Assembly (NCBI GenBank): GCA_015069165.1
Contig: SVJD01000008.1
Location: 1 to 62,355, forward strand
From: Oscillospiraceae bacterium
Lineage (GTDB): Bacteria; Bacillota; Clostridia; UBA1212; UBA1255
Length of the DNA stretch: 62,355 bases
Reading direction: 5' to 3'
Shown here piece by piece: positions 377 to 9,258 of the stretch. The translations under genes were made by a program, and so were the position numbers. A model generated the notes under the pieces. That model saw nothing but the letters and a program-made list of their open reading frames with translations, was not told where the DNA came from and searched no databases. The first letter of the stretch is position 1. Each line of letters begins with the position of its first letter.

Positions 377-1708
377 ATGTATTTAAAAAGAAAAATTGAT
401 GCCTATTTGGCAAATTGGAAAAACAGCAAAGATAAAAAACCGCTCATTGTAAAAGGACCTCGCCAAATTGGCAAAACAGCGTCTATAAATGAGTTTGCTA
501 AAAACAATTACAAACATATTATAGAAATCAATTTCGTAACTTCCGAGAAGTACAAAAAAATAACGGAAGATGGTTATAGTACAGACTCTATTATAAAAAG
601 TATTTCACTGATAGACCCCTCTCATAAGTTCGTTCCCGGCGAAACTCTGATATTTTTCGATGAAATTCAAGAATTTCCCGAAATTGCAACTTCTTTAAAA
701 TTTTTCAATATTGATGGTCGATTTGATGTGATTTGTTCAGGTTCTCTTCTCGGAATAAACTACAAGAGAATCGAAAGTAACAGTGTCGGTTATAAAACCG
801 ATTATACTATGTATTCACTTGATTTCGAAGAATTTCTCTGGGCAAAAGGTTATTCCTCTGAAGTTATAGATGATATGCTTACCCACATAAAAGAATCGAA
901 ACCCTTTTCAAACCTTGAACATTCGGTTTTTTCTTCTCATTTTTTAGATTTTTGCATTTTAGGTGGAATGCCTGCCGTTGTACGTGAATTTATTAAAAAT
1001 AAAACTTTTGAAGGAACTCTGGAAATCCAGAGGCAACTCCTCTCAGATTATAAAGAAGATATCCGAAAATATGCACAAGGTTTGGATCAAACACGCATAA
1101 CAAATGTTTTTAACAGCATTCCTGTTCAACTTTCAAAAGAAAACAAAAAGTTCCAACTCTCCATCGTTGAAAAGGGGGCGCGTTTTAAGGACTATCGTGG
1201 TTGTATCGAATGGCTCGAAGATGCCGGCATGGTTCATCTTTGTTATTGTTTGAATAACGCAGAGCTGCCTCTAAAGGGAAACTACGACATTAACAAATTC
1301 AAAATATATTTCTGTGATACAGGACTGTTTGTTGCACTTCTTGATGACGAAGCACAAGAAGATTTAAGAGCTAACAAAAACTTATCAGTATACAAAGGTG
1401 CATTATATGAAAGCATTGTTGGAGAAGCGCTTGTAAAAGCAGGATATCAGCTTTATTATTTTAGGCGCGAAGACTCCACCCTTGAAGAAGACTTTTTCGT
1501 TCGCACAGCAAACAATTTAATTCCTATAGAGGTAAAAGCAAGAAACAACAAAGCAAAATCTTTAATACAGCTTATTCAAAACAGTAAATATACAGATATT
1601 TCCTATGGTATTAAATTTTGCGCAGGAAATATCGGCTTTGAAAACAACATATATACATTCCCATACTATTGTACTTTTCTGTTGAAAAGATTTCTTAAAG
1701 AAATATGA
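377..1708 (+). CDS. AAA_14/DUF4143-family ATPase
   Basis: 443 residues. The N-terminal part (about 20-150) is a P-loop ATPase with Walker A GPRQIGKTA (residues 27-35) and a Walker B-like FFDEIQEFPE. The C-terminal part carries DUF4143-like features: a KGALYESIVGEAL segment and a nuclease-like tail with YYFRREDSTLEEDFF and IPIEVKARNN, where the E-x-K of IEVK resembles PD-(D/E)XK enzymes. A GGGGGA Shine-Dalgarno site sits 5-10 bases before the ATG. These widespread proteins have no settled role; many lie in accessory regions. It is followed 27 bp later by the lipid kinase gene. Family call is firm; function is unknown. Confidence 0.85.
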   Translation: MYLKRKIDAYLANWKNSKDKKPLIVKGPRQIGKTASINEFAKNNYKHIIEINFVTSEKYKKITEDGYSTDSIIKSISLIDPSHKFVPGETLIFFDEIQEFPEIATSLKFFNIDGRFDVICSGSLLGINYKRIESNSVGYKTDYTMYSLDFEEFLWAKGYSSEVIDDMLTHIKESKPFSNLEHSVFSSHFLDFCILGGMPAVVREFIKNKTFEGTLEIQRQLLSDYKEDIRKYAQGLDQTRITNVFNSIPVQLSKENKKFQLSIVEKGARFKDYRGCIEWLEDAGMVHLCYCLNNAELPLKGNYDINKFKIYFCDTGLFVALLDDEAQEDLRANKNLSVYKGALYESIVGEALVKAGYQLYYFRREDSTLEEDFFVRTANNLIPIEVKARNNKAKSLIQLIQNSKYTDISYGIKFCAGNIGFENNIYTFPYYCTFLLKRFLKEI

Positions 1709-1735
1709 TAAAAATAAAAAGGATGCAGCTTAATT

Positions 1736-2608
1736 ATGAGAGAAATTTCTATATACAACCCTGCCGCAGGCAAAGGAAAAACAAAAAATATTACCGAAAT
1801 TGGATACTGCACAAAATATCAAGGAGATTGCAAGCGTTTCGTAAAAGAAGAATGTTTGAAAGACCCTGATGTGCATTTTATCGTTTACGGCGGCGACGGC
1901 ACACTGAACGAAGCAATAAGCGGCATAATGGAGGCAGGAACGGAAAACATTTCCACAATTACGGTAATGCCGTACGGTTCGGGAAATGATACCATAAAAA
2001 CAATAGATACTCTTGCTTCTGACAAAAATGTTCAAGAATTAAAGCTTGATGTTATAAAATACAACAATAAATATTGCATAAATATGTTAAATATAGGTTT
2101 TGACTGCAACGTAGTTTCCAGTGCTTCCAAATTCAAGAAAAAACTCAAAATTGCAGGCAAACTCTCATACCTTTTAGGCGTTGCTACTGAATTTTTCAAA
2201 CCCTTCGGCGAAAATTTTACTATTGATGCCACTTGCGAAAACGGAGAGAAATTTACATATAGGGGTTCGTGTCTGCTCTGCGCAGTTTGCAACGGTGAAT
2301 GGTGCGGCGGAAGTTTCCACAACTCTCCCCCATCCGATATGACCGATGGCCTTATGGAAATGATTCTTGTAAAAAAATTAGGTAGGCTCAGCTTTATAAA
2401 ACTCATCGGCAAATACAAAAACGGCACTTTGATAGACCCGAAAACACTTAAGGTAACTACTCCCAAATATGCCGATAAAGTTGTATATTTACGTTTAAAA
2501 GATTTAAAAATCAGCGGAATGAAACAACTTTGTGCAGACGGAGAAGTGGAAGACTGCCAAAACGCAACAATTTCTATGATGCCCGCCGCAATTCAGTACA
2601 AAATTTAA
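1736..2608 (+). CDS. Diacylglycerol/lipid kinase family protein (YegS/DagK type)
   Basis: 290 residues, usual for the family. It starts REISIYNPAAGKGK, the nucleotide-binding start of DagK catalytic domains, followed by VYGGDGTLNEAISGI (the GGDGT motif, about residues 46-52) and MPYGSGNDTIKTI (the G-x-G-N-D motif). The C-terminal half has the beta-rich lid with VCNGEWCGGSFHNSP and MKQLCADGEV. It probably phosphorylates diacylglycerol or a related lipid with ATP at the membrane. It lies 27 bp after the ATPase gene on the same strand, and its stop overlaps the convergent birA stop. Confidence 0.9.
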   Translation: MREISIYNPAAGKGKTKNITEIGYCTKYQGDCKRFVKEECLKDPDVHFIVYGGDGTLNEAISGIMEAGTENISTITVMPYGSGNDTIKTIDTLASDKNVQELKLDVIKYNNKYCINMLNIGFDCNVVSSASKFKKKLKIAGKLSYLLGVATEFFKPFGENFTIDATCENGEKFTYRGSCLLCAVCNGEWCGGSFHNSPPSDMTDGLMEMILVKKLGRLSFIKLIGKYKNGTLIDPKTLKVTTPKYADKVVYLRLKDLKISGMKQLCADGEVEDCQNATISMMPAAIQYKI

Positions 2609-3348
2609 AACCCCCACTTTTTAAGGCTTATCTCTCCGCTTTGGAGAATATCGATAAATCCGCTATTTAATTCAACCGCAAGCCCACCGGTCTCTGTGAT
2701 TTCTACGGCAGTTCCACTATAGTGGTTGCCGTTTTTTTCATATTCTACTTCTTTTCCCAATACGACGGAATGTTCACGGTATTTTTTCAAGTCGCAAAAA
2801 GCTCCCGTTTTAATACTCAAAATATTTTCTGCCACTTTTTGACGAAGTTCATCGATTTTGGATTTTGCGAAAGCACTCTGCACGCCTAAAGAACCTGCTA
2901 TCTCCGAAAGCTCTTGCGGGAAATTTTCGGTAGAAACATTTATGCCCACTCCTATTATTAAATACCGCTCTGAATTTACAACAACGGATTCTGTAAGTAT
3001 TCCGCAAATTTTACGATTTCCCAAATAAAGGTCATTTACCCACTTTATTCCAACTCGAACACCTGTACATTCAAATATAGCTTCAGAAACAGCCATACTT
3101 GCCCTCACTGTAAGAAGCATGGCATCTTGTTCGTTTGCAGGAAACTTGTCCACTACGCTCATGTACAGTCCTGTGTTTCCGGGCGAAAAAAACGATTTTC
3201 CCTGCCTTCCTCTACCTTCTTCTTGTTTATCCGCAACAACTACAGCCGGCACTTTAAAACCACCACCGGAAATTCCGCCATTTTGCAGTAGTCTTTTTGC
3301 TTCTGTATTTGTAGAGTCAGTGGTGTCGTATTTGTAAAGCGCAAACAT
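2605..3348 (-). CDS. birA: Biotin--[acetyl-CoA-carboxylase] ligase, catalytic form without HTH
   Basis: 247 residues. Motifs are DTTDSTNTEAKRLL at the N-terminus, ADKQEEGRGRQGKSFFSPG (the biotinyl-AMP loop, GRGRQG) and GIKWVNDLYLGNRKICGILTE (the KWPND-like ligase motif). It attaches biotin to carrier protein lysines through biotinyl-5'-AMP. The N-terminal winged helix of bifunctional BirA repressors is absent, so this is a group I enzyme unlikely to regulate biotin genes. The ATG directly abuts the TAA of the upstream FTR-like gene, which indicates co-transcription. A short C-terminal domain is present (EISLKKWGF end). Confidence 0.93.
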   Translation of the reverse strand: MFALYKYDTTDSTNTEAKRLLQNGGISGGGFKVPAVVVADKQEEGRGRQGKSFFSPGNTGLYMSVVDKFPANEQDAMLLTVRASMAVSEAIFECTGVRVGIKWVNDLYLGNRKICGILTESVVVNSERYLIIGVGINVSTENFPQELSEIAGSLGVQSAFAKSKIDELRQKVAENILSIKTGAFCDLKKYREHSVVLGKEVEYEKNGNHYSGTAVEITETGGLAVELNSGFIDILQSGEISLKKWGF

Positions 3349-5417: not shown

Positions 5418-5445
5418 TTGACACAAAAGTGTTTTTTTATATAAT
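5418..5445 (+). promoter_or_regulatory. Promoter of dtd
   Basis: TTGACA (5418-5423), 16-bp spacer, TATAAT (5440-5445), 45 bp upstream of the dtd ATG. It lies back to back with the Na/Pi transporter promoter. Confidence 0.75.
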
Positions 5446-5489: not shown

Positions 5490-5942
5490 ATGAAATTTGT
5501 AATACAGCGTGTAAATAACGCAAGTGTAAGTGTCGAAGGTAATACGATAGGGGCTATTGATAAAGGTTTTATGGTTCTTATAGGTATCGGCAAAGAAGAC
5601 ACAAAAAAAGAAGCAGATCGCCTTGTCGATAAAATGCTTAAAATGCGAATTTTTGATGATGCCGAAGGCAAAACAAACTTATCTCTTGCAGATGTAAACG
5701 GCTCGCTTCTCCTTATTTCACAATTCACTTTATATGCCGATTGCCGAAAAGGCAACCGACCTTCTTTTACAAATGCAGCTCCCCCGCAAGATGCTGAAGA
5801 TCTGTACGAATACATAATTTCAAAATGTAAAGAACACGTTCCCAATGTACAGACCGGTAGTTTCGGTGCTGACATGACAGTAAACTTATCAAACAGCGGA
5901 CCATTCACAATAGTTTTGGATTCTGCAATATTTGAGTCTTGA
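5490..5942 (+). CDS. dtd: D-aminoacyl-tRNA deacylase
   Basis: 150 residues, the standard DTD length. It begins [17 protein letters not shown], typical of DTD, and carries [17 protein letters not shown] (the SQFTL-x-A-D motif) and [11 protein letters not shown] (the cross-subunit Gly-Pro motif, GP). The enzyme hydrolyses D-amino acids, and glycine mischarged on tRNA-Ala, through a substrate-assisted mechanism in which the Gly-cisPro motif excludes L-amino acids. CGGAGG lies 9 bases before the ATG. The next gene follows after 55 bp on the same strand, so read-through is possible. Confidence 0.96.
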
Positions 5943-5997
5943 TATAAAAATAGATATATTGTAGAATATCGTTAATATATACTTGGAGGAGAAATAT

Positions 5998-8900
5998 ATG
6001 AATATTTACAAAGAATATCTCGCTTCACCTATCGGCACATTAGTTATAGAAGCCGATAATGAGGCAATTACTTCAATAAAAATTCTTCCTGCCGGCAAGG
6101 TTCCCGAGGAAGGCAATAAAACAAATATATTCACAGAGCTCTGCTGTATGCAACTAAATGAATATTTCAAAGGTGACAGACGTACTTTCGATTTTCCTTA
6201 CAGATTAAACGGCACAGATTTCAAAAACACTGTTTGGGCAGAAATCGCAAAAATTCCCCACGGCGAAACTATTTCTTGCAACGATTTGGCGGAACGTCTC
6301 AACAAGCCCCAGGCAGTACGCGCAATAGCAGAAGCAGCAAACGAGTGTAACATTATGTTTGCAATTCCGTGTCACAGGATTGTAGGCGGGGAAGGTGCTC
6401 TTTCGAGCTTTTCAGGCGGCATCAAAGTCCAAGAACAGCTTCTCGAATTTGAAAAAGAGCCTCAGTATTATACAAAATTCAATTTTGCCGATGCTCAAAA
6501 AAGACGCGGTAAAGTTCCTACAAACAGAATTACGGGAAGATTTATTTACGACATTACGGACACTGTGTTCGAAACAGAGCAAGACGAAGTTCTTTCCGCT
6601 CATAAAACACATACTTTCCCTGTTGGTTTCAGTTTAGAGGGATGTTCAGGTTTCACTCTCGAAGCAGATGCTTTTATGGTAAGAGAATATGAGCCTGTCG
6701 ATGTTCTTAAACAAGAAGTTGTAATCACATTCTACAACGCAGCTGAAACTTTCGTAACAAAAGCTATCCTTTCTCCCGGAGAAAACAAGCTTCACTACGA
6801 TATAAATGATATGACATTTTCAGATGTATATAAAATATCGATTTTCTCTGCGAAGCCGCTTCGTAACGTAAAGATTTCAAAACTCAATGTTCTTGACAAC
6901 TACTTCAGATATAAAGGACAGTTGCCTTTCTATACAACAAACGGTTGTACTCTTACAGAGAAAGATTACACTTTGGTATGTGGAATAGACGGTAAAGCAC
7001 AGTTGGAAAGCTATGTTTTCCCCGATAGTAAAAACTTCACATACAACATGAAAATGCCTATCAGAAATACTATTTTTGTAGTACTTAAAAATATGTCTAC
7101 TGCTACAAAAATGAAATTGTATTACAAAACAACCGTTAATACAGAGTACTGCGAAGAAAATTCCGTAGAACTCCCCATCAGCCGCTGTCCGGAATACAAA
7201 GCATACTACTTCAACTTGTCCGCTACACCCGGGCTTGAAGGCAGACTCATGCAGTTTATGTTAGAAACTAACGGTACAGGTGAAATTATAATTCGCGAAT
7301 ACTCTTTCGAAGAAGAAAAAGTAATTGCAGAAAATGCAGGCGACATCACTTCTTGCGTAGCACAAAATGATATAATTTCTCTTACAGGTTACGTAACTCC
7401 CTCATATATCGTTGACGGTGCGATGATTTCCGTTTACGCAACTGCTATGAGAAATGACAAGAGAGGTCCCGAGGGCAAAGAATTCCTTATAGAAGTACCT
7501 TTGTCAGATGCTGTAAACGGTACACTTAAAGACGGCAGTGCGCAGTTCAGCGTAACAGGCATTCCGTTCCAAAACGGCCCTATAACAAGACTTTCTTCAC
7601 AGTTTGTAGCATTTATTACAATCGGTGAAAAAATAATTCCTATCGGCGAGCGTTTCTATATTGAAAACTACGAGGATTTCCAGACAAATCCGTATTATTT
7701 CGAACTTCCCGATTACAGCGTTCGTGTAACAGACGCTCCCTTTAATGCGAAAGGTGACGGTTGCACAGATGATACAGATGCTATACAAGCAGCTATTGAC
7801 GCGGTTTGGAAACAAGGCGGTGGTAAAATCATCATCCCCGGACCTACAGCAGAAGACGACAAAGCAACTCAGTTCTACGGCAGACGTTTCAGAATTACAA
7901 ACATCTTGCTCAGAAGCAGAACAGAGCTTCATTTTGAAGACGGAGCTATTTTGTGGCAATCTCCTATTTACAGAGATTACAAATATATACCCGATTACGG
8001 TCACGATATTGACATCGGCGGAATTACTTGGTCACACGGCTTCCTCGTTTCCAACTTACCTACTGTACAGTGCGCTGACAGTGAGTATGTTAAAATAACA
8101 GGTTTCGGTAAGATTCGTTCTTATGACACAGGTGCTGAAGAAGGCGTTGTAATGCCTTTCTATTCCACAGGTTGTGCTGACAGAATTCACCAGGTGCCTA
8201 TCGCATTCTTCCAAGTAAATCATGTAGAGCTTAAAGATTTCGAACTTGTTCGTACAAATAATTACCATGCTCCTATTTACGGTTGCCGTTATGTGTACGC
8301 AGCAAATATGAAATTACACGAAGTTCGTTGCGTAAGCGGTGATGGTTTCGGTCTTTCACGGGGGACACACCATGCTGTACTTAACAGAAACTTCTTCCAG
8401 TCAAATGATGACGGTGTTGTTCTCGGCGGTTGCTATTTTGATCCGCGCGGTCTTGTTTGGTGGAAATCACGTCTCGGTAAGCACGGCGGCACACGCCACG
8501 TTAAGATAGTTCACTCTTATATGAACTCAGGCGGCGGAAAGGCTATCGCATTTATTCCTTGGGGTACAAGCGACCCGAATATTGAAATGCAGGAAATTTC
8601 CGACATTACTGTATATGACAACCATCTGGTTTGCGTAAATCCTGTAGGTGCTTGGTATGATAACCCGTATAACGGTAAATTCCCCTTCGATAACTCTGAA
8701 ACAGACGACTACTCACCGATTAAATCCGTAAGAGTTTTCAATAACATTTACGAAGGCGATACAAATATAGGACCTGTCCAAGCTACAGACTTTATTACTG
8801 ACTGTAACATTCACTCCACAGGCGATTTCCGCAACGGAGATTTTGAGCTCAGTAAGATTCCCGGTCTTGCGAACTGGTCTTATAAGCTTAACAAAAACAA

Positions 8901-9258
8901 AAATTCAGTTAAGGTTCGCTACATTAACGGCAGATATTGTGGCACCATGCAGTACTTTAACGAAGGCGACACAGCTCTTTATCAAGGTTTGTTCTTGCGC
9001 GCCGGTGTTCATAAGTGTTCTTTTGATATGATAACAGGAGAAACAGGGGCATATATATTTGCTCAAAATATCCGCACAGGTGAAATCATCGCAGAAAAGC
9101 ACGTTGTTGCTCTTGGTGATTTCCATACTCTCGATATTAAGTTGAACCTTAGTGAAGACACTGATTTATATATCGGTTTGAGACATCCTGCTGATACTAC
9201 TTCAGCTGATGAGTTTGTTGCTCTTGATAAGGCAAAAGTTGAAAGTGTAGAAGTATAA
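5998..9258 (+). CDS. Ogt-like O6-alkylguanine methyltransferase fused to beta-helix GH28/pectate-lyase-like protein
   Basis: 1086 residues from the ATG at 5998, preferred because GGAGGAG ends 7 bases upstream; an in-frame TTG at 5983 precedes the Shine-Dalgarno site. Residues about 1-155 match methylated-DNA-protein-cysteine methyltransferases: YLASPIGTLVIEA at the start, IPHGETISCNDLAERLNKPQAVRAI (helix-turn-helix region), then the acceptor motif IPCHRIVG (Cys125) and FSGGIKVQEQLLEFE. Residues ~160-570 are beta-rich and unrecognised. Around residue 580, FNAKGDGCTDDTDAIQAAID is the classic start of a pectate-lyase-3/GH28 beta-helix, with a SNDDGVV segment (Asp803-804) as candidate catalytic acids. 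The last ~170 residues may be a carbohydrate-binding domain. No signal peptide. The frame is uninterrupted, so the fusion is genuine unless misassembled. Confidence 0.85.
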   Translation: MNIYKEYLASPIGTLVIEADNEAITSIKILPAGKVPEEGNKTNIFTELCCMQLNEYFKGDRRTFDFPYRLNGTDFKNTVWAEIAKIPHGETISCNDLAERLNKPQAVRAIAEAANECNIMFAIPCHRIVGGEGALSSFSGGIKVQEQLLEFEKEPQYYTKFNFADAQKRRGKVPTNRITGRFIYDITDTVFETEQDEVLSAHKTHTFPVGFSLEGCSGFTLEADAFMVREYEPVDVLKQEVVITFYNAAETFVTKAILSPGENKLHYDINDMTFSDVYKISIFSAKPLRNVKISKLNVLDNYFRYKGQLPFYTTNGCTLTEKDYTLVCGIDGKAQLESYVFPDSKNFTYNMKMPIRNTIFVVLKNMSTATKMKLYYKTTVNTEYCEENSVELPISRCPEYKAYYFNLSATPGLEGRLMQFMLETNGTGEIIIREYSFEEEKVIAENAGDITSCVAQNDIISLTGYVTPSYIVDGAMISVYATAMRNDKRGPEGKEFLIEVPLSDAVNGTLKDGSAQFSVTGIPFQNGPITRLSSQFVAFITIGEKIIPIGERFYIENYEDFQTNPYYFELPDYSVRVTDAPFNAKGDGCTDDTDAIQAAIDAVWKQGGGKIIIPGPTAEDDKATQFYGRRFRITNILLRSRTELHFEDGAILWQSPIYRDYKYIPDYGHDIDIGGITWSHGFLVSNLPTVQCADSEYVKITGFGKIRSYDTGAEEGVVMPFYSTGCADRIHQVPIAFFQVNHVELKDFELVRTNNYHAPIYGCRYVYAANMKLHEVRCVSGDGFGLSRGTHHAVLNRNFFQSNDDGVVLGGCYFDPRGLVWWKSRLGKHGGTRHVKIVHSYMNSGGGKAIAFIPWGTSDPNIEMQEISDITVYDNHLVCVNPVGAWYDNPYNGKFPFDNSETDDYSPIKSVRVFNNIYEGDTNIGPVQATDFITDCNIHSTGDFRNGDFELSKIPGLANWSYKLNKNKNSVKVRYINGRYCGTMQYFNEGDTALYQGLFLRAGVHKCSFDMITGETGAYIFAQNIRTGEIIAEKHVVALGDFHTLDIKLNLSEDTDLYIGLRHPADTTSADEFVALDKAKVESVEV

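Follow-up and report, generated by a model that had tools for sequence, protein, structure and literature searches.

The DNA-repair proteins of the Ogt/AGT family (TIGR00589) include the OGT of M. tuberculosis (4wxc) and the C-domain of E. coli Ada (1sfe). Base flipping by AGT is driven by Tyr114 together with an Arg finger, an Asn hinge connects the helix-turn-helix motif to the active site, and in some AGTs Phe occupies position 114 (PMC10779285). Therefore, position 114 is not absolutely fixed. Fusion proteins are also known in this family, namely AGT-EndoV of Ferroplasma acidarmanus, Ada (MPT-AGT), and AGT-2 of C. elegans (PMC10779285). In these proteins the AGT domain is one module in a larger protein, and its partners are DNA-related.

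The gene described here is located in a 62,355-nucleotide stretch of DNA (the whole stretch analyzed, hereafter the window) and likewise encodes an AGT as a module of a larger protein. In contrast to the known fusions, it unites an entire AGT, N-domain included, with an enzyme of the carbohydrate type. The gene is a single open frame of 1086 codons for 1086 amino acids (Table 1). A preliminary description, made from the sequence alone, had proposed an Ogt domain, a middle beta-rich region and a GH28-like beta-helix in one frame, and the open reading frame, the Pfam matches and an AlphaFold2 model (mean pLDDT 86.5) agree with this layout. That description had also remarked that DNA alkyl repair and polysaccharide cleavage are not known to be linked. 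The combination is indeed odd, and nothing relevant on an Ogt fused to a glycosidase was found in the searchable literature. Among the known AGT fusion proteins, Ogt plus a carbohydrate-type enzyme is a new domain combination, which is restricted to one genus.

Table 1 Features of the fusion gene and its upstream region in the window. Residue numbers in brackets refer to human AGT; G001 to G004 are the other genomes of the genus.
Feature	Position	Strand	Basis or remark
Sigma-70-like promoter TTGACA-16-TATAAT, upstream of dtd	5418..5445	+	12/12 consensus match alone
dtd, D-aminoacyl-tRNA deacylase	5490..5942	+	PF02580, E 1.7e-60
Ribosome-binding site GGAGGAG, ahead of Ogt ATG	5985..5991	+	Sequence
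Fusion gene (Ogt, linker, beta-sandwiches, GH28-like beta-helix)	5998..9258	+	ORF, Pfam, AlphaFold2 model
Ogt N-terminal ribonuclease-like domain, Methyltransf_1N PF02870, residues 3-67	6004..6198	+	29.1 bits, cut-off 21
Ogt DNA-binding/active-site domain, DNA_binding_1 PF01035, residues 74-153	6217..6456	+	80.9 bits, cut-off 27
Codon Cys94 (Tyr114 position)	6277..6279	+	Alignment; Tyr in G001, G003, G004, Cys also in G002
Codon Arg108 (Arg128 finger), kept	6319..6321	+	Alignment
Codon Cys117 (Asn137 hinge position)	6346..6348	+	Alignment; Asn in G001, G002, G003, G004
PCHR motif, residues 124-127	6367..6378	+	Sequence; acceptor Cys125 (Cys145), codon 6370-6372
Linker (joint), residues 157-174	6466..6519	+	pLDDT under 50, predicted disordered
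First beta-sandwich of enzyme half, residues 183-300	6544..6897	+	Model; fold assignment weak
Carbohydrate-binding-module-like jelly-roll, residues 298-443	6889..7326	+	Resembles CBM29 and further CBMs in fold only (Z 11-12)
Ig/FN3-like sandwich before helix, residues 448-548	7339..7641	+	Secondary structure; assignment weak
GH28-like right-handed beta-helix, residues 562-939	7681..8814	+	AlphaFold2 model and structural matches
Codon Asp782 (GH28 NTD aspartate equivalent)	8341..8343	+	Alignment; invariant in 23 homologues
Codons Asp804-Asp805 (GH28 DD pair equivalent)	8407..8412	+	Alignment; invariant in 23 homologues
Codon Lys848 (GHG His column of secreted paralogues)	8539..8541	+	Alignment
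C-terminal beta-sandwich, residues 961-1086	8878..9255	+	AlphaFold2 model

The full-length fusion was present in all five available genomes of the genus, i.e., that of the window and G001 to G004, and the four orthologues share 75, 74, 62, and 58% identity with the window protein. The spacing from the PCHR motif to TGRF, the most N-terminal conserved motif in the enzyme half, was 53 residues in four of the proteins and 50 residues in the fifth, where the gap falls inside the Ogt; the joint itself is free of insertions or deletions in all five. The assemblies of the genus are fragmented (50-180 contigs) and probably metagenomic, and G001 carries an in-frame stop, which could raise the suspicion of an assembly join or a missed stop codon; the recurrence of the same joint in five separate assemblies at 58-75% protein identity makes such an artefact extremely improbable. 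The assembly error at the joint that had been considered earlier, like an assembly chimera in general, is excluded by the four orthologous fusions, and the fusion is neither an assembly error nor recent. The stop in G001 (L064, G001:C19) is a TAA in place of a Tyr codon at fusion codon 558, within the enzyme half, and both flanks are otherwise open. It represents either a sequencing error or the beginning of decay, and unless it is a sequencing error it counts against the enzyme half always being kept. Beyond the genus, none of the 26 other genomes of the order contained the fusion, and none was found among the matches listed for 391 evenly sampled genomes of the class; in both sets, separate genes encode the parts. 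The suggestion that homologues might always occur as separate genes thus holds outside the genus and fails inside it.

A GGAGG-type ribosome-binding site precedes the Ogt start in all five orthologues. Independent translation of the enzyme half was considered and rejected, as no conserved internal start with a ribosome-binding site exists near the joint. In the window, dtd lies 55 bp upstream of the fusion gene on the same strand, and the candidate promoter ahead of it would be the probable start of a dtd-fusion transcript. On the 3' side, the same convergent small hypothetical gene, sepF, and yggS were found in all five genus genomes. A Card1-like nuclease gene is located between dtd and the fusion gene in G001 and G003 (L064 7051-8346, L065 9763-11058) and is missing in the window, and only in G002 and G004 does a gene for a VTT-domain membrane protein overlap the beginning of the fusion gene (L066 11254-12048, L067 5281-6012). 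Elsewhere in the window's genome, the start of a Cas9-like protein was recognized by eye from its N-terminus only (L113, G000:C35, 8894-10786).

In the phylogenetic analysis, the fused enzyme parts grouped as a single clade (100/100). The sisters of this clade come from other herbivore-gut Clostridia, are not fused, and have no signal peptide; more distant paralogues, including one in G004, carry signal peptides. The window's genome also encodes a second, distant beta-helix paralogue of 978 amino acids without a signal peptide (L069, G000:C20:36955-39108; 34% identity), which is common to G001 and G003. The unfused relatives begin with MARYLVKDKYTYEK... and align from about fusion residue 153 onward, and the C-terminal end of the fused Ogt, ...LLEFEK, is the usual end of free Ogts. 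Because both the start of the unfused enzyme and the end of the free Ogt are preserved, the fusion most likely united two whole genes end to end without truncating either. The fused Ogts also form a single clade (100/99), which falls outside the clade of the order's native Ogts (100/99), and vertical descent of the fused Ogt from the native one was rejected based on this placement. Its closest sampled relative (99/90) belongs to G105, a member of another family. This sister lineage likewise resides within a larger protein, but there the partner is a NYN nuclease-like domain and a beta-helix is lacking. The G105 gene (L077, G105:C153:8200-11500; 984-3299, minus strand) encodes this NYN-Ogt fusion, which also has a long acidic tail. 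The chance gene fusion invoked in the preliminary description is the likeliest origin of the window gene, but the fusion has since been retained through the genus.

The Ogt half resembles described Ogt/AGT proteins in that both of its domains score over the Pfam cut-offs, the model corresponds to 4bhb and 4wxc with a TM of 0.8 of the target, and the catalytic Cys, the His, the Arg finger, and the Glu are kept, which in the window are Cys125 (Cys145), His126 (His146), Arg108 (Arg128), and Glu152 (Glu172). It differs in being followed by 930 further residues of another enzyme and, in the window, in lacking the conserved Tyr/Phe114 and the Asn137 hinge (Tyr114 to Cys and Asn137 to Cys, with the Asn137 position set by an ungapped count from the PCHR Cys). 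Hence, the intact PCHR motif noted earlier is present, but the active site as a whole is not intact, because both of these positions are Cys. Since Tyr114 drives base flipping and the Asn hinge links the helix-turn-helix motif to the active site, the activity of the window Ogt is likely reduced; by descent and fold the domain is a member of the family, but its activity is in doubt. The copies of G001, G003, and G004 retain Tyr114, Arg128, Asn137, Cys145, and the Glu. In G002, Cys145 is replaced by Val and Arg128 by Ala, Tyr114 is lost, and a small deletion has occurred; judging from its sequence, this Ogt half appears to be dead. The window copy has the lowest PF01035 score of the four Cys-keeping copies (86.6 bits; 95-108 in the others), and the number of unique sites in the Ogt C-domain was 19 in the window versus 6-7. 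A relative-rate test of the window Ogt against the rest of the protein was not significant (Fisher p 0.37-0.48), and as the rate excess is not significant, a relaxed constraint on Ogt is indicated by the identity of the changed residues and not by their rate.

G002 also possesses a free Ogt of the canonical kind and, as its third PF01035 protein, a smaller one. The other four genomes contain the fused Ogt alone, and no second Ogt was found in the window's genome, which is 88.7% complete. The Lrp-aminotransferase pair at the site of the free ogt in G002 occurs in the other four genomes too, without an adjacent ogt, and this absence is not an assembly gap because the contigs run on past that point. 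The dead fused Ogt and the free Ogt of G002 look like a complementary loss, which carries little weight because G002 is the sole example and 7 of the 11 other genomes in the family lack Ogt altogether. Retention of Ogt is, therefore, not obviously required. One could propose that the Ogt of the window species no longer repairs DNA and now serves the enzyme half as a cap for folding or solubility, in line with its two Cys replacements, its low PF01035 score, and the dead Ogt that G002 has retained without frame damage. We regard this as unlikely, given that the window still has Cys125, His126, Arg108, and Glu152, that another Ogt was not found in its incomplete genome, and that the Phe at position 114 of some AGTs argues against a strict requirement for Tyr (PMC10779285).

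The enzyme half covers about residues 175-1086 and has the architecture of a carbohydrate enzyme; the best structural matches of its predicted helix were the galacturonidase 5olp (Z 30.9, 3.2 A over 309 residues) and the exopolygalacturonase 3jur (Z 30.6). It shares with 5olp, 3jur, and 2uve the right-handed beta-helix, an N-terminal D-D-T..AIQ..GGG motif, and an Asp triad in register; when family profiles were aligned to 3jur and 5olp, Asp782, Asp804, and Asp805 fell in the GH28 catalytic positions. In contrast to these enzymes, the fusion protein scores below the PF00295 and equivalog cut-offs, has Lys in place of the GHG His and no RIK seen, lacks a signal peptide, and carries CBM-like sandwiches on the N-terminal side. 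A GHG His and an RIK motif are sequence marks of GH28. At the Lys848 position, Lys occurs in the fused proteins and their unfused, signal-peptide-free sisters, and the secreted paralogues show GGHG; the RIK motif was not seen by eye in the homologue alignment. The Pfam search with PF00295 gave no match to the window protein, while 13 of 23 relatives matched (up to E 1.3e-9), and the C-terminal half matched rhamnogalacturonidase and PF12708 profiles only below cut-off. Because the PF00295 cut-off is not reached, we refer to the enzyme half as GH28-like and not as GH28; by its modeled fold and Asp triad it is of the GH28 clan, failing the GHG and RIK marks. Among the sandwiches in the middle region, no firm fold could be assigned to the first and the third. 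Synonymous sites were saturated in most pairs when dN/dS was calculated by domain. For this reason only amino acid identities were used, and these peak in the helix for every species pair.

No signal peptide was apparent on the fusion protein by hydropathy, as the preliminary description had stated, and its proposal that the beta-helix acts on a cytoplasmic sugar fits better than its other proposal, DNA binding. A beta-helix with DNA or a nucleotide sugar as its ligand or substrate, within a protein devoted to DNA repair as a whole, might be expected from the repair domain at its side and from the nfo-like gene that overlaps or adjoins unfused relatives in G011 and G013. However, no such neighbor was present in G010, G015, or the other loci read, and the CBM-like jelly-roll, the invariant Asp triad, and the secreted paralogues indicate carbohydrate, so that a DNA-directed role has a very slim chance of being correct. 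The nfo-like gene (AP_endonuc_2) overlaps or directly trails the unfused beta-helix gene (L070 8187-9029, plus strand; L071 7205-8035, minus strand; G011/G013), and a DNA-repair operon was discarded as an explanation of this neighborhood based on the same restricted occurrence.

The two halves could also be coupled, with the Ogt Cys as a sensor. Its alkylation, through DNA damage or by alkyl groups generated when gut polysaccharides are broken down, would then modify the sugar enzyme or lead to its turnover. The constant joint, the retention of the fusion throughout the genus, the full Ogt active site in three of the five species, and the sister Ogt that likewise occurs in a fusion are consistent with such a sensor. 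It is nevertheless improbable, because the enzyme half is conserved even though the Ogt active site has been lost in G002 and is impaired in the window, because the disorder predicted for the linker argues against a rigid contact between the halves, and because shared pathway genes near the fusion were absent from the loci compared. That the protein is an alkylation-responsive carbohydrate enzyme, in which the one-shot alkylation of the Ogt Cys reports alkylating stress to, or ends, a cytoplasmic polysaccharide-cleaving enzyme, appears quite improbable.

We favor, with a probability of about 0.62, the reading that two complete genes were fused in this genus alone, that the two halves are independent, and that the fusion is held mainly by the enzyme half while the Ogt is free to decay. 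The independence of the halves is suggested by the failure of the Ogt half in lineages where the enzyme half stays conserved. In the ancestor of a single genus of herbivore-gut Clostridia, the end of an entire ogt would have become joined to the start of an entire gene for a cytoplasmic carbohydrate enzyme of the GH28 clan. Since then, one protein would have been translated from the Ogt start, with a flexible linker tethering two modules that act independently. Where its active site is whole, the Ogt half would perform a one-shot removal of alkyl groups from O6-alkylguanine in DNA. The Asp triad of the helix half may cleave an imported or internal oligosaccharide, perhaps containing uronate, assisted by the CBM-like sandwich. 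As it is mainly the enzyme half that would hold the fusion, the Ogt half could drift, and key residues were lost in two of the five species. The join would need no functional reason and may have been kept since the protein tolerates it. Altogether, the protein resembles a durable gene fusion whose parts have different jobs more than a novel machine with coupled activities, although its persistence across five species may also be a sign that the link brings a benefit.

These results suggest that a suicide DNA-repair protein can ride on an unrelated metabolic enzyme for the lifetime of a genus. The five species would provide a natural series for the decay of a fused repair domain, with three copies intact, one impaired, and one dead in a genome that has another Ogt. 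If the halves do influence each other, the protein would connect alkylation damage with carbohydrate use in a novel way, and if it is an alkylation-responsive enzyme, the chemistry of DNA damage would be tied to sugar use in gut Clostridia.
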